Shown: positions 84-57,277 of the stretch, one piece after another
Layout of the letters: each line of letters starts with the position of its first letter
How positions within the stretch are numbered: the stretch's first letter is position 1
Made by a program: the position numbers and the translations under genes
Notes under the pieces: model-generated
What the model was told of the DNA's origin: nothing
Database searches by the model: none
What the model saw: only the letters and a program-made list of their open reading frames with translations
Source of the DNA: Dictyophora rubrovolvata
Taxonomy: Eukaryota; Basidiomycota; Agaricomycetes; Phallales; Phallaceae
NCBI GenBank assembly: GCA_029959195.1
Contig: CP114125.1
Span: forward strand, 558,001 to 622,000
Length of the DNA stretch: 64,000 bases
Direction: 5' to 3'

Positions 84-1419
84 CTAGAATGATAATTCAC
101 TACGATTTCGTCCCCTTCTCACTGAGTAGTTCAGATTCAATATCAAACGTGTGCACTGCAATAGAGTTAGCGAGGATGTGGAGGTATAAATCCATCCAAT
201 GTAATACTCACGCAAACACTGGAAGCAACATATGACCATCTACATCCATTTCATCAACAAATAGCGTATCGTGAAGGTTTCGTTCAAACTTACAAGGCAA
301 AAGATAGGCCAAGGGCACTTGACGTATGCATGTAAATGCCAGAAAGCAGGAAAGTTACTGTGATAAATTAGGGGCATTTAGCTGCTTCAGCCACGAAGCG
401 AATCTAAGTTTGATATATGCTTACAAAACAATAGCGTGAAAACCCATATTCCATCCCTGAAGAAATCTATGTATAACGGAGAATACGGAACACTTGTTTT
501 CCATGCCCAGAACTGAAGTTTGGCAAACCGTGCGACAACGAAGACAAAAGCAATACTTTGGAATATAAGCTCAGAGAAACTATTGGACGCTTGTCGTCAG
601 TGAAACTTTTACCCTTGCCACTGGTCAGGGTTGCTCACAAGACAAAGGATAGCTTTCCAGGATACTGTTCAAGCACACAAGCTCCAAAAGGTGGTGGAAG
701 ATCCTGGCCCTTCGTTTCGATGACCCGATACCCGGGCGCACCCACAGCCAGAACAATGGTCGCCGCAGTTTCAGTCAATACGAAGAGCGAAAATAGGAAC
801 CAAAGTATGAGTTTCGACCGACCGTAGAATGCATAAACTGACAATTGGTTTGATTTTATGACTTTACAATGTGCAAGGAGCTAGGTGTACCTCGTTGTAT
901 GAGTAGTATGTTTGAGCATACTATTGTGAATGAGCCAGCGAAACTAACGATCCACATTATTTCCGGACACAGGTTGTTGAATTGTGTGGGGTTTCCAAAA
1001 AAAGCGAAGATCATCCCACTTAAAAAATATCAGAAGCTTCCAAGCAGGCCAAGAAAACCTTACCAATAGATTATAAGAGGAAGATATCGAACTGTTAAAA
1101 AAAGGATTTTCACGAAAGTAAAATTGAATCTGAGGTACATATTGGTTTTACGAGAAAGATTTTCAGGACAAGAGAGCGCTACGTACGACCAAATAAACGT
1201 TACCTGTCCTGGGCTTAGTACGTGATAAATCGCGTATTAAAAGAGCTTACTTACTTCTTCACCAAAAGTCAAGAGGGTATCCCAGATAACGAAAGTTGTG
1301 CTGGCAACTACAACACTTTGTCAGTCGTCATGCATAGAAATAAAAATTAGCTTTTTACCTAGATTGAATTGAGCTGAGTAGATGAGCGGGAGAACTTGTA
1401 TGAGCTGCGGGTTGAACAT
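84..1419 (-). CDS. DUF6533-type seven-helix membrane protein, copy A
   Basis: Ten exons give one open frame of 280 residues: 1359-1419, 1255-1307, 1187-1203, 1064-1129, 891-1018, 639-837, 425-579, 294-357, 212-239 and 84-155, with GT-AG junctions throughout. The N-terminal signature IWDTLLTFGEE followed by FIW is typical of the fungal DUF6533 family. Hydrophobic helices occur in exons 2, 4, 5, 6, 7, 8 and 9, so about seven membrane spans are expected. The segments YAFYGRSK and FFRDGIWVF are shared with the other copies in the window. The ATG at 1419 gives an N-terminus matching the paralogs. The C-terminal exon ends in a short basic tail. The function of the family is unknown; a receptor-like or transport role is only an inference from topology. 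Confidence 0.85.
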
Positions 1420-3285
1420 GGTGTTAAGAATTTCTTTTGTCTAGGCAGTGAGAGATTCGGCTTGCATCTGGATGTGCTATATACATATTACTGTAGGAGC
1501 GCTAAGCGAGTCTGTCAGCCTGAGCTGGACTTAATCTTAATTGAAAGCCGATCTCCCCTCAATTGCGTTTCTTTCCTGTTTAATAAGAAGAATTTTGTTG
1601 AGAATTCATGATGGGCCGCAGAAATGCCAGTATTCACAGATGGTGCAGCAATGTCATTAATAATGACCCCGCTGTTACTCCTTGGAAAGCCGAAGAAGTT
1701 TTTAACAGGGCAAGTGGCAACTCCAGCGACGTCGAGTCTTGTTAGTGCTTATTCGTATCTCTCCATAGCTTGCGAGTCAACTGAGTCCCCATCTTCAAGC
1801 GGGCTTCAAAAAGGTCTTCTCTGGCACGTCAAAGGAAGAGAGTCTTTTGATCCATCATCCGACTAAGTGCTGGGGAATAAAGGCTAAAGGTTAACATCGC
1901 TTTTTGGCTTTAAATTTGCAGAAAAGGTTTCTTACCAAAGAAAGAAAAGAAAATAGAACCACATTTTGTAACATTAATGTGGCTGTCTTGACGAAATGGA
2001 TTCCAGCCTGCCAAATTGGAAATGCAAGGCGAAGGCACCAACGAATTCGAATAGGGCTGCGGCAACATCTCAAACCCTAATACTTTGATAACCTTCGATT
2101 CAGAAGTCAGAAGACTGTTGTACTGTACGGAATGTATTGGTTTACAACATTGACATCCAACTTTTTAAGGGATCATTTTGTGGAGGAGATATGTTCTCAA
2201 CTGGGATGTTAATAATGATGTGATGCGCAAGCACGTGGCATGTCAATATGTCAATGATCGATCACGATCGTATTATTGGAAAGGATGCCGGTATTGTTTA
2301 CGAAAGGCGTCTTGATTTCAATTTGTTTTTGCACTTCGCGCCTTTTCTCTAAATTCATCGCCAAAACGAATCCCTACAGTTTCTAGTTTTCGAAGATTAT
2401 TTCTTGGGCAGTCAATTTTGATAGCCAGGCGATTTTTCCAAATCGTTACCTGTAGTAGATTCATCAACCATGATATGCTATAAAGCCTGTGATCCTAGGC
2501 TACATAAGCCATTGGTCACTTCTTTTCAAGTGAGGCTATTGCTCAACATTCCATCATCATTAATTAATAAGGTCGTATTTTTTCCATCCCTCAAAATTCT
2601 TCTGTACGTTCCTTGAGTAATTGTATGTATATGGCGAAGCGGAACAAGAGGAGTCGTGACTATAGGCCTGGTCATTCTGCCACTCGAGGAATTCGGACAC
2701 TGTAAGTAAGAAAAAAGTGCCAGTCTTCAAGAAAAAAATGTAATGGGCATAAAGTAAGAGCAAAAGAAACCAATCGTAGTTGAATGGACGAAGGATGTAC
2801 TACTCGTGTGTGGTGATGGTAAGAGCGAAGGGACACTGGCGCAGCGGCGCTTGTCCCTGTTTGAAAGTGTAGTACATGTATCTCAGAAGTCCGGAATGGG
2901 AGCGGTAATGGATATAAAAATGACGATAATGGAAATGGAAATGGAGAGAAGGGTATTAGGAGATCCCGTGTGGTTGTCAGGGAATGAGTTCTGCTTCAGA
3001 CGAGTCTAGTATGCCGTCGTGTACGGTGCGATTCTGCGCAATTAGTGCCGCCTTCATGATTCCTGGCTTTCTTTTACTTTTCGAGTTTAAAGTGATCCAG
3101 TTCAAATAGGCTCAACGAGAACGTACATTATGTTGATAAATATATAAACACTATACGATCTTGGAAAGCGAAAGCGGGGTGTTTTCAGGTCTTGCCAGCC
3201 TTACAACGTCTTATCCCTTCGCCCGCAAAATGGCTTGAAGACAACAACATGACACATCCTGTTCTGAACTATCTATACCACGTTA
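1420..3285. other. Gene-free stretch with family-associated repeats
   Basis: No convincing coding region. The part next to copy A is its presumed promoter. Positions about 2055-2600 are a diverged copy of a block also found at about 3630-4120 and, in part, at 58130-58340. Positions about 3000-3290 resemble the flanks of the DUF6533 genes at 53.3 and 55.8 kb. The short frames in this stretch have no recognisable domain. Confidence 0.5.
2055..2600. repeat. Dispersed non-coding repeat, copy 1
   Basis: It shares long runs with about 3630-4120, including the words GGCAACATCTCAAACCC, GTGATGCGCAAG and CGCGCCTTTTCTCTAAATTC. Both copies end near a run resembling TTTTTTCCATCC followed by TTCCTTGAGTA. 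A shorter, more diverged copy lies at 58130-58340. It is probably an old segmental duplication of DUF6533 flanking DNA, as copies lie near members or relics of that family. Confidence 0.6.
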
Positions 3286-3625
3286 AAACACTAGAATTCC
3301 GGTTCTTCTTCACTGAGCAGTTTAGATTTAATATCAAATGCGTGCACTACGATAGTGTTAGTGACTGGTGTAGGATGGAGTATGTATGTCGCAAAAATCG
3401 ATTTCGTTTTTTTTTGATTTATTAACCGATCAAGATGTTTTTAGGGTCTTTTTATGGTTTATAAACCTTTAATAAACTTTGAAAATGGTGTATAAATCAC
3501 TCCCATTGTAATACTCACACAAACACTGGAAGCAGCACATGACCATTTACATTCATTGTATCAACAACGAATAACGTATCTATGAGGTTTTATTTGAACT
3601 TACAAGGCAAAAGATAGACCATCAT
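3286..3625 (-). pseudogene. DUF6533 3'-end relic
   Basis: Only sequence matching the last three exons of the DUF6533 genes remains. The terminal exon reads CTHLILNLNCSVKK, as in copy A. The 28 nt penultimate exon reads WSCAASSVC before a GT donor. A short remnant of exon 8 ends in an intact donor. The acceptor before the penultimate exon has changed from AG to AA, and the rest of the gene is missing where unrelated repeat DNA starts near 3630. The relic is therefore not functional. Confidence 0.7.
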
Positions 3626-3629
3626 GGGA

Positions 3630-4120: not shown

Positions 4121-4165
4121 TACTCTTCACTACTTGTTCCACTTAGACAGTGAGCCGCTTCTCGA

Positions 4166-5307: not shown

Positions 5308-6065
5308 GACAAGCCCGCTTTCTTTAATTAGTATTGCATTTCTTGACGCACGGTGTGCGGCCGTCACTACCTTCCAATGTGAGTTGTCTGTCTTTTCCTT
5401 TGAGTGCATATTGCGTCAATGCTTAAGCCGTTTATCAGCACTGCTTGCTACTTTTCGACTAAGTCCATTTAATTCGCACGGAAGTAGAAAATATCATATA
5501 ATATTATAGGACGTCATTTGGGCCAATCGTTACTTTTGCATGCGGATGGAGCTATTTGTACTAGTTGGCCATTCCCTTACTAGCTTTGGTTCAGGATGAG
5601 GTAGGACTTGATGATCTGGACCCGGTGCCGGCGTGTGCCAAAGACCCAAAAACGATATCTATATCCGTAATTCTGGTTATTAATTGATTTTTTCCCGCAG
5701 TTTCATGAAGATTAAGGATAAAATGAGAGCCCTAGGTAGAAATTATTAGAATCGGTAAAGAATTGCCAGGGAAGAGTAATGAATCCAAGATTTACACAAA
5801 GCGAATCAACGAAATCGATGAGTCTATAAATGAGGCATGAGATGAAGCGTGAAAGCGGGGACGTTCAACGTACAATGAAGCAACCGCTGCATAAGGGCTA
5901 TGTTGCCGCAGAGATAATACAGCGTCTAATACGACCACAACTAAAAGATTTCAGAATTGTCGAATGGTTCATGACAGCAAGTCATTATTTCTTACATGTA
6001 TTTCTATTATTATTAATCACGATAAATGGATATATGGAAATGAGAAAGGTGCGCGTCAGACTTAC
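5308..6065. other. Unresolved 3' region of DUF6533 copy B
   Basis: No separate gene is recognised. The last exons of the divergent minus-strand DUF6533 gene ending at 6066 should lie here, but no combination of splice sites gave a family-like C-terminus. The gene may be degraded at this end. The short plus-strand frame at 5830-6081 has no recognisable domain. Confidence 0.35.
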
Positions 6066-7505
6066 GCAAAATAATAGATAACTCCGTCTCGAAAAATTGC
6101 TTTCATGAGCGCCGGAAAACCCGAACCAGTATGGAGCTTCCAAAACGGCCCATTACCCGCAATCCCACGAACCTCCCTCCGGACTTTATATAGTGACAAT
6201 CCAAAAAATATTGCTGTTCGAGGGTGTTTTGAATCTGCTTTTTGATCATTGAAACCAATACATACCTGTAAGAACGAGAGAGGGAGGCCTTTCGGAAAAC
6301 AATTGAGATATTATGCCACTGGCATGTAATCAAATGAAATGCTAACCAAGCAACAATCGTAACGTCAAATGAGATTGTCTCTTTCACATATAAGTAACAC
6401 CCAGGGAGAGAGATTCCGAGTGGTACAGCCATCAAATTCTGGGCTTCCGCTTTCCCAATTTTGATACCTGCGTAAAAGACACACTAAATGGCGATGTATA
6501 TATTTATAAAGTTTTTTTTTTTGAAAAGTAGGAGATATACCAATATTTCAGCTGGGTAAAGGGTTCAGTTTTTTATGCAAAGACGGTTGGAGAGCACTTG
6601 AATTTACTCAAATAAAGCGGTAAAATTAGACATAACACTAATATAATATCAATCAATCAATGACTTCACAATGAAAAGTCAACGACTTCGCTAACCTTTC
6701 TTGCTCCGACCGTATAATGCATAAATACGCAAAAAAAGAATGAGATTGACACATGCTTCTAACACGTTCGACCCTACACTATGTTCACGACAGAAATCGA
6801 TTGGTCAGTTATAAGTCACTAGAGACACGTCTACAAAATGCACCATTACCTACTGTCCCACGTAAAGAAGACACGACAGCTGCAGCATTAGGTTATATGA
6901 GGATTTGAGTGGTACGATAAGGTCATAAATCTACCTCTGAACAACAATATGATATAAGACTTGAAGATTATATGCAATCGACTTACGCTTATAGACCAAT
7001 TTGTACCCAAGGACACTGCTTCAAATGATGAATGATAAAAGTAGATCAGCAAGAAACAGTTACCAATTGACAAGTATCTGAAACGAATTGTCAACATGGC
7101 ATTAGCGTGATTTGCGTTTTTTCTCACCCTAGATCCACCAGTCCAAAATATCGCGTAAAGAGATACAAGCCTTTTGACAAAGTGAATGGTTTGCTAAAAA
7201 AAATTTGAGGAAGCGTTTTTAGACAAGAGATGGGTAGTACGACCTCCAAACAAACTTGACCTGAATAGAAAATGACATTTAATAAACATATGACGAAGAT
7301 GAAACTAAGTCCGAACCTCTCGGGGAAGAGTCAAAAGAGTATCATATACGAGTGCGGTAAATACTGCAACTGCGAGAAATTAGCATTCTATCACTGAGAT
7401 GAACCAAAGATCGCGATCACCTGTAACATAATTGACAACATAGATTTGGCTCAATGACTGTTGTAGTAATTCAAATTCTTGCATGGGAGGATCTAAAGAG
7501 ACCAT
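6066..7505 (-). CDS. Divergent DUF6533-type membrane protein, copy B (3' end unresolved)
   Basis: The first four exons (7421-7505, 7317-7369, 7244-7260, 7128-7193) are well supported, and exons 2-4 have exactly the lengths 53, 17 and 66 nt seen in the other copies. They encode LVYDTLLTLPREV followed by FVW and LYLFTRYFGLVD. Further on, an exon ending at 6696 encodes LRIYALYGRSKK and splices in frame to 6266-6467, which contains PLGISLPGCYLYVKE. A later exon ending at 6066 contains FRDGVIYYF, the family motif before the sixth helix. Joining exons in the middle (about 6750-7100) and after 6066 could not be fixed. The gene is either a divergent working member or decayed in its second half. Confidence 0.6.
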
Positions 7506-7557
7506 TTGAAGGGAAACTGAACCTTTTGGAGTGGCTTTACTTGATCAATCCTGGGGA

Positions 7558-7565
7558 TTTTTATA
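7558..7565 (-). promoter_or_regulatory. TATA box of DUF6533 copy B
   Basis: The minus strand reads TATAAAAA about 55 bp upstream of the ATG at 7505, a reasonable distance for a short 5' leader. It supports that start codon. Confidence 0.5.
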
Positions 7566-8239: not shown

Positions 8240-8691
8240 TGACGCGTGACAGTGTCACACAACTAGCGTTGGTACGTCAACCGAGCCAGCACTCGCTTCC
8301 AACTCGCTCCGCACTTCGACCTCGCATTTGACAAAAAAATTCCTATAGACACGTACGGGATTTACAACCAATGCGTATCGTATTTGCTGTTCATATGTCC
8401 TCCGGATGCTTTCGCTCAGCCAGCTTGGCAACTTCGCTCCTGCTCTCGTGGACAGTGAACTGGTTGTTTCATTGTTATTCGGAATGACATGTCCCCCTAG
8501 AATAAGATTGTCAGTCTTGTTCCGTCCTATTTTTTTGTCCTGTGTCCTCCTTCACACTTATATGAAGTCTGACTCTAGTACTGTTCAATCAAGTCAATTA
8601 CTCCCAACCTCTCGTCACTTGCATTTTTCAATTTTCTACTCTACTCTACTCCGTGCATCAACATCGCGTTTAACAAATCGTTCAGCACACC

Positions 8692-10324
8692 ATGCTTGAC
8701 CGCTTCCCTTACGAAATCTTCAGACAAATCATAAGACAATCCTTAGATGTGTCTGACACGCGTTTTATGCTTTACGGCTCAGATGGATTAGGTCCACTAC
8801 CCCCAATCAAGATGTCCCATGTATGTCGTTCATGGAGGAGGACACTTTTGTCGGATCCGACAATGTGGAACCTGGATCAGTATTCCAGAAATGATACCGG
8901 ATCAGACAACAGAATTTCTACATCGGTCTGGTTCTGCTCCACTCAATGTGGTTATATACGTGTCCATTTACGCAATAGCGTTGGATATGAATGCCTGGTG
9001 CTTCCGAACCACGACCGTTGCTGCCGTTTCTCAAGAAATACACCGTATCCAGTCGCTCGAACTGGTCTTCTCTCAAGACCGTTCCCAACCTATGGAACCC
9101 TCGTTACGCCAGATCTTGCTACTTCTGAACCAATCTGCACCATATTAGAAAGCTCTATTCATTCCTAAAACCGGGCCCTGGGGATCGGAACATTCTGCAA
9201 ACCCTGTTTTCGGGGGATACACCTCGTCTCAGACACATGTATCACCGGATCGTCGCCGGTTTTTCAGAACTCCTACCTTCCCCATTATTCAGAAATTTGG
9301 CTAGTCTGCATCTTGATCTAATCGCTCATCGAATAACCATTGATTATGATTCTCTTCTCCACGTCCTCGAGCTGTCACCCGGTCTTCGCGCGTTTGAGCT
9401 TGTAACTGTGGGAGACCCAAACCCCGTTTTTCATATGCCTACACGTCCCACACGTCGAGTCCACTTGCCGTTTCTCCAATCACTGATACTTCTGGGTGAT
9501 CCTGCAACCGAAGTGACAGATTTTCTATTGGGACATCTCACATTTCCCTTCGAAACCGTTCACTATCGTATCGACGGAGGGGATCTTCAACGCAAAAGAT
9601 GCAATTTAACGTCGTTAATCCGGTTCCTCGTCCAACAAATCACCCGTCCTTATCAATGATCAACCGCTCAGGGCACTCTCATACCCGCATCGAGCTTGAA
9701 AGCTGTTCGGGTGGAAGGGAAAGCTCAGTTTTTACGACGCCATTCAACTGTACATATGAACCTCTGGACAAATTTCCAAGCTTTCTACAGATACTGAAAT
9801 TATCAGATATCGTCCACTTCCACTTCCACCTGAAAGGCCTCCCTCTGGAAACTCATATTCTTAGGAAGATTTACGTTGGCCTTGTAAACTTGGAACATTT
9901 GGTTATCGAGCATGATATCTTGACTGATCGGATGCATTTTGGCTCACCGACAGTCTTCCTCATGGCACTAATGCCTCTACCATCAGGACCACGGACGCAC
10001 AACGGATTTGATCCCAACCAGAATACCGCCTACGGTCCAGATGATCTGACATCCGACAATAGCTTCTTTCCTTGCCCGTCTCTGTCCACAATGAAGATCA
10101 TATTCGACCGTTGTGCTGAACTGAAATTAAACGAACACTATGCCAATGTGATTATAGCTTGTTGTTCGGTTAGAAGACATGCGAGACACCCGTTCAAGCA
10201 TGTATCTATCTGCTCTCATCCGGGGACCGTGACACAAGAGGCAGCAAAAGTGTTGCTGCGTAATGAGTACTGTCCCGTCGATATTTCTTCACTGGAAAGG
10301 ACTGGCATGGAAATGAATGATTGA
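8692..10324 (+). pseudogene. F-box/LRR-type protein pseudogene, family 1
   Basis: Paralog of the intact gene at 16992-18623 and alignable from start to stop. The N-terminus keeps the F-box (LPYEIFRQII-like motif, then MSHVCRSWR). An extra A near 8872, in the ATGTGG region after the F-box, shifts the frame; a second shift lies near 9145 and a third near 9640. The protein is therefore spread over at least four frames. The TATA box is also altered: where the intact copy has TATATAAAG, this one has TTATATGAAG near 8559. It is a young pseudogene, since similarity to the intact copy is still very high. Confidence 0.85.
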
Positions 10325-10326
10325 AG

Positions 10327-10962: not shown

Positions 10963-12391
10963 TTAGTACAAACCTCCGATTCTTCCGACAGCAAATCCTT
11001 CCACCTTGTGCAACTCCGAGTCGATCACGATTGCAAGCGTTATTTGTTGGTCCCGCGAAGGACCACAAGAATATTGGGCTTTCTTCGCTGCGTGATGTAG
11101 GTTCAATATCAAACGGGTAGACTATATGTAAGCGGCGTGAGTGAGCAGTGAAGCGCATTGGAATCCACATTTTCCTTTGTTATACAACTTACACAAATAC
11201 TGGAAAGAGCATACGACCATCTAGTTTTGTGACATGATCAATGAATAGCTAACCGACACAATTTTACTGAAGCTCACAAAGCAAAAGACAGGCCTGCTAC
11301 ATTTTGAGCATGCATCAGAATACCAGTAAACAAGAAGAGCACTTGTAATCCAAACTTCAAAGACGAAATAAGAGTAAATAGTCTTGACTATGCTTACAAA
11401 ACAGAATGAAAAATGCCCACGTTCCATCTCTCAAGAAAATGTTATATAGCCGTGGGTTCGGAAGCCCTGTTTTCCATGCCGCGAATTGTAGTTTGGCAAA
11501 CCTCACAGCGATGCAAACAAAGGCGACAGCTTCGAATGTAAGCTTGGAGAACCTTTCAGAGCACTTGATATGAGTACGAATTTACTTTTCGTTAATTCAC
11601 ACCCACCACGCATAGGAAAACGCCCGAGGGTACGTTTCAATAACGCAACGTCCAAAAAATTCTGGTATTGGTGAAGGAAGATTATCCTTTGCTGCCCGAA
11701 ATCTGGGTAGACCCAAAATCAGAATCGCTACTACCAAAGTTTCACTCAATACAAATCCTGAACGGAGAGTCCAGAATATGTGTTTTGAAAGTCCGTAAAA
11801 TGCGTACACTAAAAAATTATTGCCAGTTCAATCACTCGAAGCAAAAATGAGGTACCTCGTTGTATAAGCAATATGTTTGAGCATGCTGTGATGATAGAAC
11901 CACTAATAGTAATGAACCATATAACTTCCGGGCACCAGTTAGCTTTTATATACCCAAAGAAACCGAGGGTAGTTCCACTTGAAAATATAAGTCACGCTCA
12001 AACTAACCGAGCAAAACCTACCAAAAAAATAGAAGGGCAAGATATCGAACCACAAAATATAAGACTTTGACAAAGGTGAAGTTGGGTCTAATACATCTTA
12101 ACCACACGGTTTTTAGATCTAAAAGCACTACGCACGACCAGATAAACTTGACCTAGCGCAACGTTCAGTATATGATAACTTGCATAGGGGAGGAGACACT
12201 TACTTCCTCATCTAGGGTCAAGAAAGTATTCCAGATAATGAGTGTTGAAGTAGCAGCTAACAAGTGCTGTTGCCCATACACGAAAATAAATAAAAGAATA
12301 TTTCCTTACCAATGTTGAATAATACTTGTAAAAAGAGTGGAAGTCCTTGTACGCTCTGAGGTCCTATTTGTAGCGTCAAGGGGGCATCCAT
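10963..12391 (-). CDS. DUF6533-type seven-helix membrane protein, copy C
   Basis: Ten exons (12310-12391, 12204-12256, 12136-12152, 12022-12087, 11856-11977, 11607-11808, 11398-11552, 11278-11341, 11193-11220, 10963-11121) give an open frame of 315 residues with GT-AG junctions. Signatures are IIWNTFLTLDEE followed by FIW, VKVLYFVVRYLALLFFW and YAFYGLSK. The C-terminal exon (159 nt) is more than twice as long as in copies A, F and G and adds a soluble tail beginning STRLILNLHHAAKKAQYS. It is convergent with the dead F-box copy. The closest relative in the window is copy D. Function unknown. Confidence 0.85.
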
Positions 12392-16519: not shown

Positions 16520-16862
16520 GAGTGCTACACAACTTACCACGGAACTAGCGCTGGTGCCTCAGACGCTGAGTCAGGTTCCAACTCGCTTTGCAGAGCCTGC
16601 ACTTCGACCTCGCATGCACTCGACAAAAAATATTCCTAGACACGTACGGCACACAAATCAACCAATGTATAGGGATATGATTCCAACCAAGGCGATTTGT
16701 ACTTGCTGTTAATATGTCCTCCTGACGTTTTCGCTCAACTCTTGCCCTCGCGGACAGTGGACCGGTTGTTTCATTGTTATTCGGAATGGCACGTCCCCCT
16801 AGAATAAGATTGTCAGTCTTGTTCGTCCTATTTTTTTGTCCTGTGTCCTCGTTCACACTCAC

Positions 16863-16871
16863 ATATATAAA
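16863..16871 (+). promoter_or_regulatory. TATA box of the intact F-box gene
   Basis: TATATAAAG lies about 120 bp upstream of the ATG at 16992. The equivalent site of the dead paralog near 8559 is altered. Confidence 0.5.
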
Positions 16872-16991
16872 GTCTGACTCTAGTACTGTTCAATCAAGTT
16901 AATTAATCCCAGTCTCTCGTCACTTGCATTTTTCAACTCTCTACCCTGCTCCGTGCATCAACATCGCGTTTAACAAATTGTTCAGCACACC

Positions 16992-18623
16992 ATGCTTGAT
17001 CGCCTCCCTTACGAAATCTTCAGACAAATCATAAGACAGTCCTTAGATGTGTCTGGCACGCGTTTCATGCTTTATGACTCAGATGGGTTAGGCCCACTAC
17101 CCCCAATCAGAATGTCTCATGTATGTCGTTCATGGAGGACGGCACTTTTGTCGGATCCAACTATGTGGACCTGGATCAGTATTCCGGAAATGGTACCGGA
17201 TCAGATAACGGAATTCCTACATCGATCTGGTTCTGCTCCACTTAAAGTGGTTATATACGCGTCTATTGCCACAGTGGCATTGGATATGAATGCCTGGTGC
17301 TTCCGAACCACGACTGTTACTCCTGTTTTTAAAGAAATACACCGTATCCAATCACTCGAACTGGCCTTCTCTCAAGACCGCTCCCAGCCCATGGAAGCCT
17401 TGTTGCGTCAGATCTTGCTACTTCTGAACCAATCTGCGCCAACGTTGGAAAAGCTCTTTTTAGCCCTGAAACCGGGCCCTGGGGATCGTAATATTCTGCA
17501 AACCCTGTTTTCGGGGGATACACCCCGTCTCAAACATATGTACCACCGAATCATTACCGGCTTTTCAGAACTCCTGCCTTCCCCATTATTCAGAAATTTG
17601 GCTAGTCTGCATCTTGATCTAATCGCTCATCGAATAACCATCGATTATGATTCTCTTCTTCACGTCCTCGAGCTGTCACCCGGTCTTCGCGCGTTTGAGC
17701 TTGTCACTGTGGGAGACCCGAACCCCGTTTTTCATATGCCTACACGTCCCGCACGTCGAGTTCACTTGCCGTTTCTCCAATCACTGATGCTTCTTGGTAA
17801 CCCTGCAACCGAAGTGACGGATTTTCTATTGGGACATCTCACATTCCCCTTCGGAACCCTCCACTATCATATCGACGGGGGAAATCTTCAACGCAAAAGA
17901 TGCAATTTAACGTCATTAATTCGGTTACTCGCCCAACGTCGTCACTCATCATTATCAATGCTCACCCGCTCACCAGACTTTCATACCCGCATCGAGCTTG
18001 AATGCCGTTCGGGCGGAAGGGAAAGCTCAGTCTTTACGACGTCATTCAACTGTAGATATGAACCTCTGGACAAATTTCCAAGCTTTCTACAGATACTGAA
18101 ATTATCAGATATCGTCCACTTCCACCTGAAAGGCCTCCCTCTGGAAGCTCATATTCTTAGGAAGATTTTCGTTGGCCTTGTAAACTTGGAACATTTGGTA
18201 ATCGAGCACGATGTCTGGGCTAATGGTATCTTGGCTGATCGGACACATTCCGTCTCACCGATAGCCTTTTTCATGGCACTAATGCCTCTGCCATTAGTAC
18301 CACAGGGATTTGATCCCAACCTGAATACCGCACACGGGTCGGATGATCTGAATTCCGACAATAGCTTTCCTTGCCCATCTTTGTCTACAATAGAGATCAT
18401 ATTCGGGCACTGTGTTGAACTGAAGCTGAACGAACATTATGCTAATTTGATTGTGGTATGTTGTTCGGTTCGAAGAAATGCGAGCCACCCGTTTAAGCAT
18501 ATATGTATTCGCCCTTCTCCGGGGACCTTGACACAAGAGGCAGAGAATGTGTTGCTGCATAATAAGGATTGTCCCGTCGATATTTTGCCACCGGAGGAGA
18601 CTGGCATGGAAGTGGATGACTGA
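16992..18623 (+). CDS. F-box/LRR-type protein, family 1 (intact copy)
   Basis: Single exon, 543 residues. The N-terminus is an F-box of the kind expanded in Agaricomycetes: RLPYEIFRQII at about residues 4-14, then MSHVCRSWRTALLSDPTMW at about 42-60. The remainder is rich in leucine-repeat-like segments such as NLASLHLDLIAHRI and PSFLQILKLSDIVHFHLKGL. F-box proteins normally recruit targets to SCF ubiquitin ligases through Skp1; the target here is unknown. The gene is the plus-strand half of the tandem duplication and ends 221 bp from the convergent DUF6533 copy D. The start is fixed by the F-box position and by the TATA box at 16863. Confidence 0.85.
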   Translation: MLDRLPYEIFRQIIRQSLDVSGTRFMLYDSDGLGPLPPIRMSHVCRSWRTALLSDPTMWTWISIPEMVPDQITEFLHRSGSAPLKVVIYASIATVALDMNAWCFRTTTVTPVFKEIHRIQSLELAFSQDRSQPMEALLRQILLLLNQSAPTLEKLFLALKPGPGDRNILQTLFSGDTPRLKHMYHRIITGFSELLPSPLFRNLASLHLDLIAHRITIDYDSLLHVLELSPGLRAFELVTVGDPNPVFHMPTRPARRVHLPFLQSLMLLGNPATEVTDFLLGHLTFPFGTLHYHIDGGNLQRKRCNLTSLIRLLAQRRHSSLSMLTRSPDFHTRIELECRSGGRESSVFTTSFNCRYEPLDKFPSFLQILKLSDIVHFHLKGLPLEAHILRKIFVGLVNLEHLVIEHDVWANGILADRTHSVSPIAFFMALMPLPLVPQGFDPNLNTAHGSDDLNSDNSFPCPSLSTIEIIFGHCVELKLNEHYANLIVVCCSVRRNASHPFKHICIRPSPGTLTQEAENVLLHNKDCPVDILPPEETGMEVDD

Positions 18624-18844
18624 AGTCTCGTTTTGCTTATTTTTATTCATCGTGTTGTGTTTCTCAGCGCTTTACTCGTTATTTACTTCAATCCACACAT
18701 GTACATATTATCGTCCTTCATGCTGCTGACATAAACAAAATGTCAAATTATAACCACGATCGGTTTACGCAAAGCCTTGTTTTGATAATTTCAGTGAAGA
18801 CTCTGATTCCTCTGTTCGCAAATCCGTACTCATTGTGCACCTCG

Positions 18845-20218
18845 CTATTCCGAGCCAATCACGATTGCGAGCGTTATTTGTTGACTCTGCGAAAGAGGCC
18901 TAGAATATTGGGCTTTCTTCGCTGCTTGGTGTACGTTCAATATCAAACGGGTAGACTTTAAATAAGCGGCGCGAGTGAGCGGTGACTAGTGAAGGGCACA
19001 TTTACTTTTGTGATACGACTTACACAAATACTGGAAAGAGCGAACGACCATCTAATATCTGGCCAATTAATAGAACAAGTAAACACAATTTACCAAAACT
19101 TACAAAACAAGTGACAGGCCTGCTACAATTTGAGCATGCATTAGAATACCAGTAAACAAGAAAAGCACTGTAAGTCGAAACTTCAGAGACGAAATACATA
19201 AGAGTAAATAGTCGTGACTGTGCTTACAAAACAGAATGAAAAATGACCATGTTCCATCTCTCAAGAAAACGTTGTATAGCCGTGGGTTCGGAAGCCCAGT
19301 TTTCCATGCCGCGAATTGTAGTTTGGCAAACCTCACAGCGATGCAAACAAAGGCGACAGCTTCGAATGTAAGCTTGGAGAACCTTTCAGAGCACTTGATA
19401 TGAGTACGAATTTACTTTTCGTTAATTCACACCCACCACGCATAGGAAAACGCCCGAGGGTACGTTTCAATAATGCAACGTCCAAAAAATTCTGGTATTG
19501 GTGAAGGAAGGTTGTCCTTTGCTGCCCGAAATCTGGGTAGACCCAAAATCAGAATCGCCACGACCAAAGTTTCACTCAATACGAATCCTAAACAGAGAGT
19601 CCACAGTATGTGTTTGGAACGTCCGTAGAATGCGTAGACTGAAAATTATTATCTGTTCGATCACTCGAGTTAGAATGGAAGTAGGGTACCTCGTCGTATG
19701 AGCAACATGTTTGAGCACGCTGTGATGATAGAACCACCTATAGGAATGAACCATATAACTTCCCGGCACAAGTCAGCATTTACATTCCCGAAGAAACCAA
19801 GGATAATTCCACTTGAAAATGTCATCCACGCTCAAACCAACCAACCGAAACCTACCAAAAAAATACAAGGGTAAAGTACCGGACCACAAAAAATAAGACT
19901 TTGACAAGGGTGAAGTTGAATCTGATACGTCTTAGCCTAGCGATATGGCTTTCAGGGTTGAAAAAAAAACTACGCACGACCAGATAAATTCTACCTGGCA
20001 CAATGTTCAGAGTTAGATTACTGCTACTGTAGGAGTCAAACACTTACTTCCTCGTCGAGGGTCAAAAAAGTATTCCAGATAATGAGGGTTGTAGTAGCGG
20101 CTAACACAATTTGTTGCCCATATACGAAATGGAAGAATATTTCTTTACCAATATTGAACAAGACTTCTAGAAATCGCGGAAGTTCTAGCACGAAATGTAG
20201 CAGTTGTAGCAGTGTCAT
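18845..20218 (-). CDS. DUF6533-type seven-helix membrane protein, copy D
   Basis: Ten exons (20149-20218, 20048-20100, 19978-19994, 19856-19921, 19690-19811, 19437-19638, 19228-19382, 19104-19167, 19024-19051, 18845-18955) give 295 residues without interruption. Signatures are IIWNTFLTLDEE followed by FIW, FNFTLVKVLFFVVRYF, CSNMLLI and YAFYGRSK. The sixth exon carries an insertion shared with copy C (LPSPIPEFFGRC) and absent from A, F and G. The terminal exon is 111 nt and encodes a soluble tail starting STRLILNVHQAAKKAQYS. It is convergent with the intact F-box gene. Function unknown. Confidence 0.85.
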
Positions 20219-31626: not shown

Positions 31627-33020
31627 ATGGACCCCCTCAGTCAAACTGATCACTCTGTCTGTATCGAAGTATATTCTTCATATTCCGATCCCATGTCGCT
31701 GCAACAAATCATACAAAAGCTTCCGCTCACTTACCCAGTTCTCTGTGATATCGGTAAAGAATAACTTTCATATCCCATTTATGCATGATTGAGGAAATGG
31801 CGTAGCGGGCAGTACAACTCTCCTTGTCTGGGATACATTTTTGACCTTCGATGAAGAGGTACGTCACCGTTATCACTATGCGAGTCATCATGTACCAACC
31901 TTCGAGATAGATAGAGTTTATCTGGTCACGGTATGTATTTATTTCACCCCGGCCCTGATAATATTCATAATATAACCAATACCTTAGATTCAGATTTAAT
32001 TCAGTTAAGGTTTTATATTGTACGGTTCGATATCTTGCCTTTATAATTTATTGGTAAGATTTTCTTGGTTTACCTGCCCAAAATTTTCTGACGGTTTTAA
32101 GCGGGATACCCTTCGCTTTCTTTGGGAACTACAGAAAATTCAGCTTGTGTTCGGAAATCATGTGGCTTATTACTTTTTCTGGAGCAGTTATAATAGCATG
32201 TTCAAACATGCTGCTTATACAACGAGGTACATATGCCTTTTTAGTTTTTCTCAAAATAACAGAAAAAAGAATTATTATCTAGTATATGCATTTTACGAAC
32301 GCTCGAAACCCTTACTTTGGCTCCTATCTATAATTTTCGTATTGATTGAATCTTCGGTGGTAGTTATCATGACTTTGGGTGTGCCCAAGTATCAGGTTGT
32401 CCAGCTGGAGGTCTTCCCCCCACCTTTCGGACATTGCCTTGTTACAAAAGTTCCTGGAATATTGTCTTTTGTTTTGTGAGCGACGACTTTAAAGCAGTAA
32501 ACCAGGTAGAATTCTACTGACAGCACGCGCCCTCAAAGGTTCCTCGAGCTTGGATTCCAAAGTATTGCTTTTGCTTGCATTGTTGCACGGTTTGTTCTGT
32601 TGCAGCTCTCGGCATGGAGAACGGGTATTCCAAATTCTCCGCTTTACGTAGTTTTCTTGAGGGATGGAATATGGGTGTTTGTGTTTATGTTTGGTAATGG
32701 CAGCTCAGATTCAATCTTGCTTGCAACTGAAGAGTCGGAATCGCAGTGATATTTTTATTGACTGGTATTTTTATGCATACTCAATCTGCAACCGGCCTGT
32801 CATTTGCTTTGTGAGTTTGAATAATATTTAAATTTGTTATTTGCTGACTGAATGAATCAAGATGGACGTATACTGCTTCTAGTATTTGCGTAAGTACTAC
32901 AGCGAAGGGATGTAAATTCACCCTCACTCACCAATGCTATTACAGTCTACACGTTTGATATTGAACCTGAATCGCTCGGCAAATCGAGATTATATTACCT
33001 CGAATCCTTGGTATGCCTAG
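31627..33020 (+). CDS. DUF6533-type seven-helix membrane protein, copy E
   Basis: The only plus-strand member. Ten exons (31627-31753, 31806-31858, 31911-31930, 31988-32053, 32102-32226, 32283-32475, 32539-32693, 32735-32810, 32862-32889, 32946-33020) give 305 residues with GT-AG junctions. Signatures are LLVWDTFLTFDEE followed by FIW, VKVLYCTVRYLAFIIYW, CSNMLLIQR, YAFYERSK and VFLRDGIWVF. Exons 2, 4, 7 and 9 have the family lengths 53, 66, 155 and 28 nt. The N-terminus is about 20 residues longer than in A, F and G; a second ATG within exon 1 (MSLQQIIQKLP) aligns with their starts and is an alternative. The tail is short. Function unknown; about seven helices predicted by eye. Confidence 0.85.
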
Positions 33021-33577: not shown

Positions 33578-34572
33578 CTAGTGTGATCGTGTCGTACCTC
33601 CAACACAATCTTCATTATGTAGCAGCATATTTTCTGCCTCTTGCGTCGAAGAGTCTGGCAAACGATAGATGGACATGCTTGTGAACGGACATCCCGCACG
33701 TCGTCGAACTGAACAACATTTCGCAATCGCTTGGGCATAGGGCTTGTCCAATTTCGGCGTACTATCACGAAAGAACTTCATCTTGAGTGTGAACAGAGAA
33801 GAACAAGGAAAGATGGAGCTCCCGGTGTTATCCAGCTTGAATATATTCTGGTTATAACCCAATTCGTTTTTCGGATTCTGTTCCAGACCTGCAGCTCGTG
33901 CTTGAAAGTTTGACCGCTGAGGCATTAATGCCGATCCAACTCTGTGGGCATGTCTCAACGTTCCAAGAATGAAAGTGTCCGTTATTCTATAGACTGGTGT
34001 CAAGACTTTCAATGTAAAAAGTCTGTCTCGGCGCCGTTAATACAGTTCCTCGGCCAACGACGTCACACATCCTTATCTCTTTCAGTGCTCCGAGTCACCT
34101 ATTCAAAACGCTTCAATATGTACTTGAAACTTTCCGAGACCTATCCGTACGAGACGGAATGTTCAGTATTTATGACAACATACGACTCTCTTTACGAACC
34201 TGTAGACAAATTCCCAATATTTCTCTAGACATTCAAAATATCAGATATCGTTAACTTACATTTGACAGGTGCCCCGCTAAAGACCAATATTCTTAGAAAT
34301 GTTCTCATTCTTCTCGTAAATTTGGAACATTTGGTTGTCGAGCGCAATCGTTCGGTTCATCTTCCACCAACTTCTTCTCCGCCGACATCCTTCTTACTAC
34401 TAGGTAAAAGTGTGGTCCTCCATGAACGACAAACATGAGACATCTTGATTGGCGGTCGTAGTCCTATTCCATCTGAAGCAGAATTCACAGAATCTGTGCC
34501 GTGCGTAGCTGAAGGCACCAAGGGTAATTTGATTATTTTTTGAAAGATCTCGAAAGGGACGTGATCAAGCAT
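33578..34572 (-). pseudogene. F-box family 1 pseudogene with an internal inversion
   Basis: The F-box start (LDHVPFEIFQKIIKLPL, then MSHVCRSWRTTLL) reads on the minus strand from 34572 to about 34395. The part matching the middle of the intact F-box protein (DSLYEPVDKFPIFL, then ISDIVNLHLTGAPLKTNIL and LVNLEHLVVERN) reads on the plus strand at about 34030-34355. The C-terminal part (PYAQAIAKCCSVRRRAGCPF, then EAENMLLHNEDC) is again on the minus strand at 34012-33578. Much of the first half of the repeat region is missing. The gene was therefore deleted and partly inverted after duplication. It is more diverged from the intact gene than the copy at 8692. Confidence 0.75.
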
Positions 34573-36224
34573 AGCGGCGAGTGCCCATTGGCGTCACACC
34601 GTCACGCGTCGCACCCAAAGTTGATACGCCAGATTCAGAGGCATGAGTACAGGGGGGTCCCTTGCCCTTTTACCACGACCATCTCGGTCACTCCAATGGT
34701 TAAGCGCGCACCGTTCCAGCAGGGTAAGACAAAAATCGGACGGTCTCTGCTTAGTATACTTATAGCAAACCCTAAAAATCCGAAGTCTTAAGTTCAGCTA
34801 CCCCCCAAACCATAAAAAGCGTAAATCACGCGTATTCAATCTTCAAGAAGACCAGAACTTCAGTGGAAAAGCACGCACATCCATACGGGCAAAACAAAAA
34901 TGAACAGCCTCTGCTTAGAAACCTAAAGCAAGCTCTAAATAATCCGATGTTTTTAAGTTTAGCCCAATACTCCCTCAACATACAATCGAATATTAATTAC
35001 AATAGTTCATACCAAAGAAGCTCAGAAGCTCTCAGAAGTACAGGCACTCGCTTAGACCCCTCAAGGCCTCAAACATATCACATGACATACCTGGCTGACG
35101 TGGCCCTATACGGACGCCCCAAGAAACAGAATACTTCTTACCCCTCTTTTAGAAGTATGAATACAGTTTTCCATATCGCCAGGGCTGTCAAATCCGCATT
35201 TCTTCAAATCAAACCGAAGTTTTGGAATTGAGACATACGTCGGAATGGCGGACTATGTGAATGTTGAAACCTTAACCCTAAACCCAGGTTATGTACCACT
35301 TGCATCCAACACCACTATTACAGGAACAGCCACTGCTCCATCATAAATCGTCAATACGTTTGAAATAGCCAAGAATGTATCGTGTGTACACTGCATATAG
35401 ATATAGTACATGGTCCTGATAAACACGGCCGGTCCAAAGTTTGAGTTTTAACCATGACATGCGTCTGGCGAATTATAAGTCGAATATCGGATCCTGAAAG
35501 AGAACATGATGCCGACGAAAGAAGAAACCGAGGAGAGAATTACTTTCAAACTGCAACACATTGCCATTGAAAACTCAAACGAATATGATTGAAGCAAATT
35601 CAGTGGGAGTACCTGTGGCTATTAACTGAGACACGTCCTCTCCCATGTACAATATTCCGCGACGTGCTGGGGGACGATTCTGCTTTCGGAGCTTGTGTTT
35701 CGCCCGAGGTTACTAGGGCCATATATCGTGAGCTTATTCAGTTGCTGCAGGTTGATTCAGAGGCCCTGCGAAGGCCAGACAGTTATACGTCGCTCCGTTT
35801 CCTAGTAATCCCACAATAGTAACCGGTCTACTAATGTGTGGAAAAGAACTTAGAATTAATTGTGCTTCGTTCCAAGTATCCAAATGTTTCTCTCCCACTG
35901 ATATTGGTTGAATTAAGGAGACAATTATTTCTAACATTTTTTATGTAGCGGTTTCTAGTCTAGTATTCACCTGGGGTGCATCTCATAAATCGCATGTAAA
36001 ACAGCTTGTGGAAGCACCCTGGGATGCGGTATAATAGTATTAGAAGAACAATATGTCTCAAAGTCGGATCTGCACCATTGCTGGCGAAAATGCAATAAGA
36101 TTGCGCATTTTGGAAACAAGCAGCCATATATACACGGAAGATGTATTGTATGTATTATGCAATGCATGATGTATGTACGACGTGTTATCAAAAAAATTGT
36201 ATTGATTATTCAGTCAGAGCTCCT
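34573..36224. other. Gene-poor stretch with a short direct repeat
   Basis: Two diverged copies of a block of about 75 bp (containing CTCTGCTTAG and, further on, AATCCGA) lie near 34728 and 34900. The plus-strand frame at 35589-35819, with EVTRAIYRELIQLLQVDSEA, looks protein-like but lacks a recognisable domain. Nothing else recognised. Confidence 0.35.
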
Positions 36225-41046: not shown

Positions 41047-41049
41047 AAG

Positions 41050-47290: not shown

Positions 47291-47299
47291 ACATATTTT

Positions 47300-49870: not shown

Positions 49871-49917
49871 GGCAGCGGGGAGCGTCGGAGTTCGAAAAAC
49901 AAAACCTATTCCGGCAC

Positions 49918-50664
49918 ATGTTGTTCAGCAGACGACTAGTGACGCGGACGACGAGCACGCTATCAACAGTATTCCGAGGCAATGTATTCGAAGAAAAATC
50001 AGTCAGCGTTCTCGAAAAACTTTCAATGTCTTTAATGAAAGTAGGCGGAAAGTCTGACGGAGGCGTTGATTTACAAGGATGGTGGTATGTCCCTGTCTCG
50101 CAGGGTTCGGCTGCGAGTCGTTTAAAGCAAGGGCAAGACAAAACTACCACCACTTCAACATCGAGGATAACATGGAAAGCACCGGATGGAACAATCAGAC
50201 ATCGATACCGCGTTTTGGGACAATGCAAAGCCGAACAAAAAAAAGTCGGACCGCGATATGTTCGCGAACTTGAAGGTGTCCTCGGCCGATTTGAAAAATC
50301 CAGCGTAGTCGGTATACTCGTCTCCGAATCAGAATTCACCCGTTCGGCATTGTTGACAGCCTATTCTTCGAAATACCCGTTGTTCTTGCTCCGATTACCT
50401 CCTCCCGATGAACTTCAAATTGAAGAACCTCATTCTCTCGAGGGGAATAGTATGGTAGAACCTATTGAAATCGGTTCGGCAGTTTGGAATCCCGCTCTCG
50501 GTGCGAATTATGGTCTTTTTAAAGGAGAGCTCGAAATTCTTTGGGAGCGGTCCGTTCATTCTGTGCAAGGACGTCCGGTTCTGTGGCGGAAGGGAAAAAA
50601 AGTTGAAGGATGGATACCACCAGAAGATGATACATCTTTTCGTCAAGTTGATGCTGTCTCGTAA
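49918..50664 (+). CDS. RRG7: Required for respiratory growth protein 7, mitochondrial
   Basis: Single exon, 248 residues from the ATG at 49918. The region VGGKSDGGVDLQGWW, with Asp at about 51, followed by VLGQCKAEQKKVGPRYVREL, with Lys at about 104, matches the Rrg7 family (DUF2034), whose fold is of the PD-(D/E)XK nuclease type. In yeast the protein is mitochondrial and needed for respiratory growth. MLFSRRLVTRTTSTLS at the chosen start looks like a mitochondrial targeting sequence. An in-frame ATG at 49849 would add 23 residues but would overlap the start of the divergent DUF1770-like gene, so the inner ATG is preferred. Confidence 0.8.
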   Translation: MLFSRRLVTRTTSTLSTVFRGNVFEEKSVSVLEKLSMSLMKVGGKSDGGVDLQGWWYVPVSQGSAASRLKQGQDKTTTTSTSRITWKAPDGTIRHRYRVLGQCKAEQKKVGPRYVRELEGVLGRFEKSSVVGILVSESEFTRSALLTAYSSKYPLFLLRLPPPDELQIEEPHSLEGNSMVEPIEIGSAVWNPALGANYGLFKGELEILWERSVHSVQGRPVLWRKGKKVEGWIPPEDDTSFRQVDAVS

Positions 50665-52643: not shown

Positions 52644-53436
52644 CGTACGTGGGTGTGAGCGAGAGTTCTCATGTTCAGATGCGCCCAGGGATCCAAGGGG
52701 TGCATGGTCAGCCCAATCGAAGCTTGGATTTAATCGCAGAGGCGCGCAGCTGTCTATTAAATAACGACCACGACCACGACCCCCCCCCTCGAGCATTTTT
52801 CTGCGAATTAAGATTTCTCGCGAAATAACATAATGCGGGCAGCGAACGGAAAATAATTCAGGACGCAATTTGGACGTAATCAAAAGGATTAAAAGGAATC
52901 AAAAAGAGAGCCTGATACGGGGCGTGGACGTATATTAGGAAACGACATTAAAGTACAAAAAACGTATATGGTGTTGCATACACAGCAAAAGGAACAGCCT
53001 GTTGCTTCGATGCGGACTGATGGCCTTGTGTGTCTCGGGAGTACTACAAGCTGTCCTTGTCAAATGTGGTGTTGCAAATACACCCCAAGCCTCAGAGCCA
53101 GCGCCGCTTTACTGTGCGATGTACTCGAATATGAGATGAAGTGTGGGAGCCAACTTTTGTAAGTACCTCAACCATTACTCGCTTTATATGTATGCACCTT
53201 CTGGACGGATTGAAATTAGAATGTAAGCAAGTTCATGGATCAGATGTTACAAATTCAAAGCTTCATTGAACTCCTCAAGATGATGGTAAATATCATAATA
53301 AATACTATATGATTTATGAAGTGCGAAAGCAAAAGCCGGGTGTTTTTAGGTCTGCCAGCCTGTGCCACCATCAGACATCTTATCCAATTCACCTGCAAAA
53401 CGGCTTGAAGACGCATCTTGCGTTTAACTAGGTCTA
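52644..53436. other. Intergenic, family-associated flank
   Basis: No gene recognised. From about 53317 the sequence (GCGAAAGCAAAAGCCGGGTG) repeats at about 55798 and resembles 3168, marking the 3' flank common to DUF6533 copies F, G and the relic at 3286. Confidence 0.45.
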
Positions 53437-54799
53437 CTACGATAAAAGGCTGGAATTCCTGTCCCTATTAACTGAGTAATTCAAGTTCAATATCAAACGC
53501 GTACACTGCAATCGCGTTAGTAGCAGTCTAATGTGAAGAATGTACGAATCTCTTTATTGTGATGCTCACACAAATGCTTGAAAAAGCGTATGACCACCTA
53601 TATCCGTCAACAAAAAGACGTACCTAGAAAATTTTATTTGAACTTACAGGGAAAAAGACAGACCAAGGACACTTGAAGTACGCATATAATAAATGCCAGA
53701 AAGCAAGAAGGTTACTGCGGTTTAGTTAGCCTCTTTCAAACACGGCGAGGCAAATCTAAAATCGATATGTTTAAGCTTACAAGACAAGATTATAAACACC
53801 CATATTCCATCCCTAAAGAAACATATGTACAGCCGAGGATACGGAATATTTGTTTTCCATGCCCAAAACTGAAGTGTGGCAAACCGTGCAATAATGTAGA
53901 TGAAGGCGATACTTTGGAATATGAGCTCGGAGAAACTTTTGGACGCTTGCTGTCAGGGGAACGTTTTACCCATATTATTGGTTCATGGTTACTCACAAGA
54001 CAAAGGATAATTTTCCAGGACGTTGTTCAACAACGCAAGCTCCAAAAGGTGGAGGAAGATGATCCCCTTTCAAGTTGGCAGTCCGATACTCCTGAACACC
54101 CACAACCAGGATAACTATCGCTGCGGTTTCAGCCAATACGAAGAATAAAGACAAGGACCAAAGTATAAGTTTCGACCGTTCGTAGAATGCATAAACTAAA
54201 ATTTGGTTTGATTTTATAGTGTGATTTTAAAGGAACTAGGTGTACCTCGTTGTATGAGCAGTATGTTCGAGCATGCTGCTGTGAATGTGTTACTAAAACT
54301 AATGATCCACACTATTGCCTGACAAAATTTGAGCCCTTCGGGGTCTCCGAAGAAAGCAAAGTTTATTGCACTTGGAAATGTCAGAAGCTTCTTAAGCAGA
54401 CCAAGAACAACTTACCAAAAAATTATAAGAGTAGGATATCGAACTGTTAAGTATAAGACTCTCACGGGAGTAAAGCTGAATTTCCTAAGGTAGTGACTAT
54501 CAATATGGGGAACATTTTCGGGACAGGGGAACACTGGTATTACGCACGACCAGATAAACGTTACCTGTCATCCTGAAGCTTAGTGCATAATAAATCGCGT
54601 ATTAAAAACCTTAGTACTAACTTCTTCGTCAAAGGTCAAGAAGATATCCCAGATAACGATAGTTGTGCTGGCAACTACATATAATATTTCGTCAGTTGCC
54701 ACTGCCAGTGACATTGAATAAAAACTCAGTCCCTTCACCTAAATTGCATAGAGGTGTGTAACCAAGCCGGAGTTCTTGTATGAACTGCAGCTCTGACAT
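53437..54799 (-). CDS. DUF6533-type seven-helix membrane protein, copy F
   Basis: Ten exons (54739-54799, 54622-54674, 54548-54564, 54416-54484, 54246-54370, 53997-54195, 53781-53935, 53648-53714, 53570-53597, 53437-53505) give 280 residues. Signatures are VIWDIFLTFDEE followed by FIW, VRVLYLTVRYPTLIIFW, CSNILLIQR, YAFYERSK and CFFRDGIWVF. Nearly identical to copy G, with the same exon lengths except in the last exon, so the two arose by a recent tandem duplication. A TATA-like TATTTATA on the minus strand near 54850-54860 lies about 55 bp upstream of the ATG at 54799. The second exon uses a GTTAGT donor. Function unknown. Confidence 0.85.
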
Positions 54800-55906: not shown

Positions 55907-57277
55907 CTACAACGATAAAATGCTGAAACTCCTGTTCCTATTAACTGAGTCACTCAAGTTCAATATCAAACGCGTACACTGCAATTACGTTAGTGGCAGG
56001 TAAATAATGTACAAATTCATTCATCGTGATACTCACACAAATGCTAGCAAAAGCGTATGACCATCTACATCCATGTAGTCAGCGAAAAGACGTATTTGAA
56101 AGGTTTCATTTGAACTTACAGTGGAAGAGACAGGTTAAAGGTACTTATAGGACGCATATAAAATATCCCAGTAAGCAAGAAGGTTACTGCGATTTCGTTG
56201 GCCTCTTTCATACACGAAGCAAATCTAAAATCGATATGTTGCTTACAAGACAAGATTATAAACACCCATATTCCATCCCTAAAGAAACAGATGTATAGCC
56301 GGGAATACGGAATATTTGTTTTCCATGCCCAAAACTGAAGTGTGGCAAACCGTGCAACAATGTAGATGAAGGCAATACTTTGGAATATGAGCTCGGAGAA
56401 ACTTTTGGACACTTGCTATCAATGAAAAATTCACCCATATCATTGGTTCAGGGTTGCTCACAAGACAAAGGATAATTTTCCAGGATGTTGTTCAACCGCG
56501 CAAGCTCCCAGAAGTGGAGAGAGATGATCCTCTTTTAAGTTAGCGGTCCGATACCCGGGCACACCCATAACCAGGATAACTATCGCTGCGGTTTCAGCCA
56601 ATACGAAGAATAAAGACAAGGACCAAAGTATAAGTTTCGACCGTTCGTAGAATGCATAAACTAAAAATTGGTTTAATTTTATAATGTGACTTTAACGGAA
56701 CTAGGTGTACCTCGTTGTATGAGCAGTATGTTCGAGCATGCTGCTGTGAATGAGCCACTGAAACTGATGATCCACATTATTGGCTGACAGAATTTGAACC
56801 GTTCAGGGTCTCCGAAGAAAGCAAAGTTTATTGCACTTGGAAATGTCAGAAGCTTCTTAAGCAGACCAAGAACAACTTACCAAAAAATTATAAGAGTAGG
56901 ATATCGAACTGTTAAGTATAAGACTCTCACGAGAGTAAAGCTGAATCCTCTAAGGATATTGACTATCAATATGAGGAACATTTTCGGGACAAGAGAACAC
57001 TAATATTATTACGCACGACCAGATAAACATTACCTGTCATCCTGAAGCTTAGTGCATAATAAATCGCGTATTAAACACCTTAGTACTAACTTCTTCATCA
57101 AAGGACAAGAAGATATCCCAGATAACGATAGTTGTGGTGGCAACTGCGTATAACATTTCATCAGTCGCCGCGGCAGTGGTCGCCAACACTGAATAATAAA
57201 ACAAGAGTCCCTTCACCTAAATTGCATAAAGTTGGGTAATCAAATGGAAGTTCTTGTGTCAGCTGCAGCTTCGACAT
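55907..57277 (-). CDS. DUF6533-type seven-helix membrane protein, copy G
   Basis: Ten exons (57217-57277, 57091-57143, 57017-57033, 56881-56949, 56711-56835, 56462-56660, 56247-56401, 56120-56186, 56037-56064, 55907-55978) give 281 residues, all with GT-AG junctions. Signatures are VIWDIFLSFDEE followed by FIW, VRVLYLTVRYPTLIIFW, CSNILLIQR, YAFYERSK and CFFRDGIWVF. It is the tandem partner of copy F with a repeat period of about 2.48 kb. Its terminal exon is one codon longer and differs in the last residues. A TATTTATA element lies upstream near 57330. Function unknown. Confidence 0.85.

Follow-up and report, generated by a model that had tools for sequence, protein, structure and literature searches.

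A tandem array of DUF6533 genes encoding predicted seven-helix membrane proteins, candidate surface chemoreceptors, in the basidiomycete Dictyophora rubrovolvata

Mushroom-forming fungi react to numerous external signals, and the receptors for most of these are, to our knowledge, unknown. One described protein of the DUF6533 family is SNB1 of Coprinopsis cinerea, which is predicted to span the membrane seven times with its N-terminus outside, and which belongs to a low-copy family with developmental roles and one to three copies in most Agaricomycetes (PMC10949477). A second family, DUF6534, was proposed in 2025 as a new class of fungal G-protein-coupled receptor (GPCR), and in the main text of that paper the five words beginning with DUF6 are all DUF6534 (PMC12842992). 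The literature searched for DUF6533 yielded the SNB1 paper and a Ganoderma comparison, and no paper describing a DUF6533 array or expansion. We describe here such an array in a 64,000-nucleotide (nt) stretch of the Dictyophora rubrovolvata genome (28.24 Mb in 11 contigs), corresponding to C9:558001-622000 and referred to below as the window.

The window contains six complete genes of ten exons each (A, C, D, E, F and G), a divergent member (B) and a relic within the 57 kb that extend from the stop of A to the start of G (84-57277), and all of these, as listed in a preliminary description of the stretch, were found by spliced alignment. Gene A was assembled by hand and then served as the query for the others with a purpose-written spliced protein-to-DNA aligner. 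The members of the array, in order, are:

84..1419, minus strand: gene A, ten exons of 61, 53, 17, 66, 128, 199, 155, 64, 28 and 72 nt, 280 amino acids (aa), DUF6533 (PF20151) at 55.9 bits
3130..3621, minus strand: relic of an A/F-like copy that retains pieces of exons 8-10, with a score of 920 against the profile, which places exons 9-10 at 3275-3545
about 5580..7505 (ends placed by eye), minus strand: gene B, divergent DUF6533, 27.3 bits, exons 2-4 of 53, 17 and 66 nt
10963..12391, minus strand: gene C, ten exons, 315 aa, DUF6533
18845..20218, minus strand: gene D, ten exons, 295 aa, DUF6533
31693..33020, plus strand: gene E, ten exons, exon 3 of 20 nt, 279 aa, DUF6533
53437..54799, minus strand: gene F, ten exons, 280 aa, DUF6533
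55907..57277, minus strand: gene G, ten exons, 281 aa, DUF6533, closest relative F

The array is real and looks like an ordinary multigene cluster, and the family to which it belongs is catalogued but of unknown function. All six complete genes begin with ATG, end with a stop codon and have no internal stops, their 54 introns (44-73 nt long) are all bounded by GT and AG, and the intron phases (1,0,2,2,1,2,1,2,0) are common to all six. With a six-gene profile the genes score 13,518-14,497, far above the reversed-window stretches (n = 20, at most 198); these scores are inflated because the profile was built from the same six genes, and with A alone as the query the scores are 6,622-9,178 for the other five, 1,551 for B and 1,027 for the top noise. 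Gene B, which is modelled for exons 2-4 only and is split differently under looser aligner settings, is possibly in decay. The relic matches F by blastn at 3130-3362 and 3505-3621, and A at 3490-3621.

Membership of the family is firm, as had been proposed. For proteins A, C, E and G the DUF6533 profile of Pfam scores 44.6-55.9 bits, above the curated cut-off of 24.1 in all four, and Pfam gives nothing else for them at an expectation value (E) up to 10. We modelled a set of 20 array-type genes, and all of the 18 proteins searched from it (the set without C9_464k and C7_303k) match DUF6533 at the same threshold, the sole other matches being one weak one each to DUF4112, DUF3938 and Kinocilin. 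The genome contains at least 144 DUF6533 matches, a lower bound in that 150 of 217 candidates were scored, with 49 on C7, 21 on C9 and 20 on C3 and the longest runs on C7; DUF6534 has nine matches.

The local array seen earlier stands as a set of tandem copies, but it runs past the window on both sides. Seven more A-related copies lie outside the window, at C9:407, 419, 464, 467, 684, 689 and 692 kb, such that gene models place 13 copies over about 286 kb (C9:407-693 kb), the six window genes included; C9:470-558 kb was covered by the A-query search only and copies there may be missed. In a midpoint-rooted FastTree phylogeny 12 of these 13 copies form one clade with a support of 0.92, and the remaining copy, C9_692k, groups with a C3 copy (support 0.80), several inner branches having support of 0.03-0.04. 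The copy at C9:464 kb (L015 4504-5838) has a shortened exon 6 of 148 nt and a GC donor, lacks the cysteine of the second extracellular loop (ECL2) in its model, and is probably decaying.

The exon lengths noted in the preliminary description are borne out. Exon 2 is 53 nt in the six genes and in B, exons 7 and 9 are 155 and 28 nt in all six complete genes, exon 3 is 17 nt except in E (20 nt), and exon 4 is 66 or 69 nt. What we do not retain is the argument that the six ten-exon assemblies are independent evidence for the genes, as the architecture is inherited and common to distant paralogues. The 20-gene set includes copies on C3, C7 and at C9:1.79 Mb with 32-35% identity to A, and in the alignment its intron columns and phases match with few exceptions: intron 3 of E and C9_684k, intron 6 of C9_464k, a first intron absent from three models, and extra last introns in two. 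Because genes this distant have the same introns, the ten-exon architecture is ancestral to the clade, and the constant exon lengths reflect shared descent. Other DUF6533 subfamilies in the genome have different exon structures, so that the fixed architecture characterises this clade rather than DUF6533 as a whole.

Within this inherited plan, some exons are steadier than others. In the 20-gene set exon 2 measures 53 nt in all 17 models counted, exon 9 is 28 nt in 20 of 20, and exons 7 (155 nt), 3 (17 nt), 4 (66 nt) and 8 (64 nt) have these lengths in 18, 18, 16 and 15 of 20, respectively; exons 5 and 6 have six lengths each (the commonest in 6 and 9 of 20), and exon 1 has five. Exons 2, 3, 4, 7 and 9 map to predicted helices and cytoplasmic loops, exons 5, 6 and 8 to predicted extracellular loops, and exon 1 to the N-terminus. 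The contrast of fixed and variable exons is clear for exon 7 against exons 5 and 6, although exon 8 varies hardly more than exon 4, and shorter exons are expected to vary less anyway. Of 29 distinct internal insertions or deletions, 16 are in the N-terminus or extracellular loops (nine of them in ECL2), which comprise 60 of the 280 residues of A, and the remaining 13 comprise five in cytoplasmic loops, seven in helices and one in the C-terminal tail. Outside the window the models behind these counts are direct aligner output, in which a false intron may bridge a break and exon 1 lengths are soft; C7_300k, C7_303k and C3_2222k have a fused first exon and were set aside for exons 1-2, and exons 3 and 4 of C9_684k (21 and 68 nt, with a GC donor) may result from misalignment. 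Left out of the set were B, L024a (an internal stop and a broken exon 6), L027b (broken exons), and L029-L031 and L001-L008, which are of other DUF6533 subfamilies and have low profile scores.

The hydropathy profile has seven peaks, in agreement with the estimate of about seven helices, and of these the first and last transmembrane helices (TM1 and TM7) are the weakest. We took the orientation from the SNB1 paper (PMC10949477) and placed the helix bounds by hand. With the N-terminus outside, the inner halves of the helices are less variable than the outer halves in seven of seven helices, in both the 20-gene set and the 13-gene set, a contrast equalled in 0 and 2 of 10000 shuffles, respectively. 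Fifteen residues are invariant in all 20 genes, and 14 of these are on the inner side, the one outside being C83 at the top of TM3. Its putative partner in ECL2, C162, is present in 19 of 20, the exception having a gap at that position, and in rough models of other DUF6533 subfamilies compared by eye there is a cysteine at the TM3 position in most. Many GPCRs have a disulfide bond between cysteines at these two positions. An opsin-like protein was considered and rejected; opsins need a lysine in TM7, and TM7 has no conserved lysine in the alignment and models.

The earlier suggestion of a receptor-like or channel-like role can be narrowed in favour of the receptor by the seven helices, the TM3-ECL2 cysteines and the conserved, presumably cytoplasmic, face, although a channel or transporter remains a rival. 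We favour an orphan GPCR-like family of surface chemoreceptors, at what we judge to be about an even chance, the case being built from sequence comparison. Under such a scheme a lineage-specific tandem array would have grown by local duplication and gene conversion, and its copies would be GPCR-like receptors with the N-terminus outside and a TM3-ECL2 disulfide. The conserved cytoplasmic face would interact with a signalling partner common to all copies, and the outward face, which differs from copy to copy, might enable each to bind a different small external cue. A wider proposal, which we advance tentatively and regard as somewhat doubtful, is that DUF6533 constitutes an undescribed class of basidiomycete chemosensory GPCRs, represented here by well over 140 genes, many in tandem arrays, and that in this clade length change has been channelled into the exons for extracellular loops and termini with most helix and cytoplasmic exons held fixed.

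Several observations weigh against the receptor assignment. No Pfam GPCR family matches any of the 18 proteins, and no Protein Data Bank (PDB) chain matches a 6- or 18-sequence profile, in either case at E up to 10, and the SNB1 authors state that SNB1 fits no GPCR class (PMC10949477). A conserved inside with a varied outside fits transporters and channels also. The invariant arginine R58 is located inside predicted TM2, and the positive-inside bias is modest, with about 6.7 lysines and arginines in the inside loops and C-terminal tail versus 3.9 outside (2.6 in ECL2 alone). The orientation itself rests on the SNB1 paper, and if it were reversed the conserved face would be the outside one. The absence of matching GPCR profiles and solved chains, together with R58, is what an alternative model would expect in which these proteins act as seven-helix channels or transporters, or handle lipids in the membrane, and are not G-protein-coupled receptors, and the SNB1 paper leaves transporter, channel and receptor open (PMC10949477). 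We nonetheless consider this model rather unlikely, in that the TM3-ECL2 cysteine pair and the conservation of the presumed cytoplasmic end of TM3, which reads R-V-Y-A-F-Y in gene A, are better suited to a receptor, going by the general features of GPCRs.

The genes are under purifying selection, albeit weak. The ratio of nonsynonymous to synonymous substitution rates (dN/dS) is 0.341-0.539 in all 15 window pairs, none of them near 1, in keeping with the earlier claim of selection, and in the 13-copy set it is 0.176-0.539 in the 67 of 78 pairs for which it could be computed, the other 11, all involving C9_692k, being saturated at synonymous sites. A codon model gives an omega of 0.53 for the six genes and 0.41 for the 13 copies. 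The outer codons have a higher dN/dS than the inner ones in all nine pairs examined of the 78, although the pairs have branches in common and the gap is small in F/G (0.50 versus 0.47) and in A/E (0.43 versus 0.40). Such raised values (0.54 for F/G overall and an omega of 0.53 for the six), an F/G dN/dS at inner codons alone that is not significantly below 1 (p 0.10), and the presence of the relic, the divergent B and the shortened copy at C9:464 kb could also be accounted for if the copies were mostly drifting duplicates of little function, kept only through recent birth. However, the reading frames are open in all six genes with nine intact introns each, and whole-gene dN/dS is below 1 (Fisher p 0.005 for F/G and 1.5e-5 for C/D), and we regard drift as improbable.

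Two pairs in the window carry long identical runs that we read as gene conversion. In C and D, which are 85% alike overall, a 175-nt run takes in the last part of exon 6, all of intron 6 and part of exon 7, and none of 10000 permutations equalled it; the run in F and G is 126 nt long (2 of 10000). The permutations ignore uneven constraint along the gene, and the firmer part of this evidence is intron 6, which is identical in C and D at 54 of 54 positions. A versus F and A versus G provide no clear case of conversion, the longest runs giving 0.31 and 0.04 and the best 300-nt stretch 14 of 2000 for each.

Conversion, together with the local multi-copy arrangement and the co-duplicated F-box-like genes described below, might also be expected of a self/non-self recognition locus, acting in mating or vegetative incompatibility, as had been raised in the preliminary description. 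Elsewhere, on C3, three DUF6533 matches sit between two homeodomain pairs, which could be taken in the same sense. Against this, matches to STE3 are on C11 and those to Homeobox_KN on C3 and C7, whereas the window is on C9, which has neither, and dN/dS is below 1 in all 67 computed pairs, although whole-gene ratios could hide a few sites. A mating-locus interpretation of the array is thus unsupported, and we think it hardly likely that the cluster is a self/non-self locus; other recognition roles stay compatible with where the mating genes lie. As separate observations, C3:2063941-2114350 has two pairs of homeodomain genes, which are probable mating-type genes, with DUF6533 matches at 2072338, 2077542 and 2081112 between the pairs, and C11:864346-874372 is an STE3 pheromone receptor cluster, with a separate STE3 gene at 1012125-1013087 and a DUF6533 match nearby at 896698. 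The presence of DUF6533, the clustering of STE3 and the pairing of the homeodomain genes are in keeping with a basidiomycete.

Array growth has involved a second gene family, and its duplication with C and D is, like the C/D conversion, newly seen in this analysis. The members in the window are:

8362..10326, plus strand: F-box-like gene, copy 1, tail-to-tail with C, match over several frames, 86.0% to 16681-18625
16681..18625, plus strand: F-box-like gene, copy 2, tail-to-tail with D, 549-codon open frame at 16974-18620
33605..34590, pieces on both strands: rearranged F-box-like relic adjoining the tail of E

Each copy of the duplicated block pairs an F-box-like gene with a DUF6533 gene in tail-to-tail order, as 8362-10326 plus 10815-12353 matches 16681-18625 plus 18626-20192. 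The F-box-like designation reflects Pfam matches below cut-off (F-box, E 0.05; F-box-like, E 0.096). Two more relatives, both broken, lie in the 10 kb beside the C9:419 kb copy (L010, C9:410-419 kb), and no member was found at E up to 1e-4 in the other tiles searched (L009, L011-L031 and L001-L008), so the pairing is limited to some copies. A paralogous pair of open reading frames at 50906-52729 and 58586-60152, both on the minus strand and 69% and 82% identical in DNA over two pieces, flanks F and G; it has no Pfam match over cut-off and is unmatched to the F-box-like family.

Pfam matches at E up to 0.01 were obtained for four of 20 long frames of the window. An open frame at 49843-50661 (plus strand) has an RRG7 domain at 96.3 bits and a weaker match, also over cut-off, to Mrr_cat (restriction endonuclease) at 30.5 bits, and 61474-62580 (plus strand) matches acyl-CoA dehydrogenase/oxidase C-terminal domains at 41.3 and 30.5 bits. 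At 26978-27430 (plus strand) there is an inositol monophosphatase match below threshold (22 bits, with a cut-off of 27). Direct repeats that are 69-78% alike occur at 46231-46577/47349-47696, 46932-47247/49128-49443 and 2279-2619/3788-4116.

If the array does encode a receptor repertoire, it would supply defined candidate receptors in a ready-made series of paralogues that differ most on their outward face, and it is useful to set it beside the systems it most resembles. Like the STE3 pheromone receptors, these would be seven-helix fungal membrane receptors in small clusters, but none of the 18 array-type proteins matches STE3, and the STE3 genes are on C11. The animal odorant and taste receptor arrays are likewise tandem, seven-helix, shaped by birth and death and varied on the outward face, but a sequence relation was not found in the Pfam and PDB profile searches. 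With DUF6534 (PF20152) the array shares occurrence in Agaricomycotina, seven helices, orphan status and large numbers across species, as that family is described in PMC12842992, but it is a separate Pfam family, this genome has nine DUF6534 matches versus at least 144 to DUF6533, and 0 of the 18 array-type proteins match DUF6534. SNB1 has DUF6533 and seven predicted helices in common with the array, a likeness at the level of the Pfam family, but where SNB1 is low-copy and developmental (PMC10949477), the genes of the array form a multicopy tandem clade.

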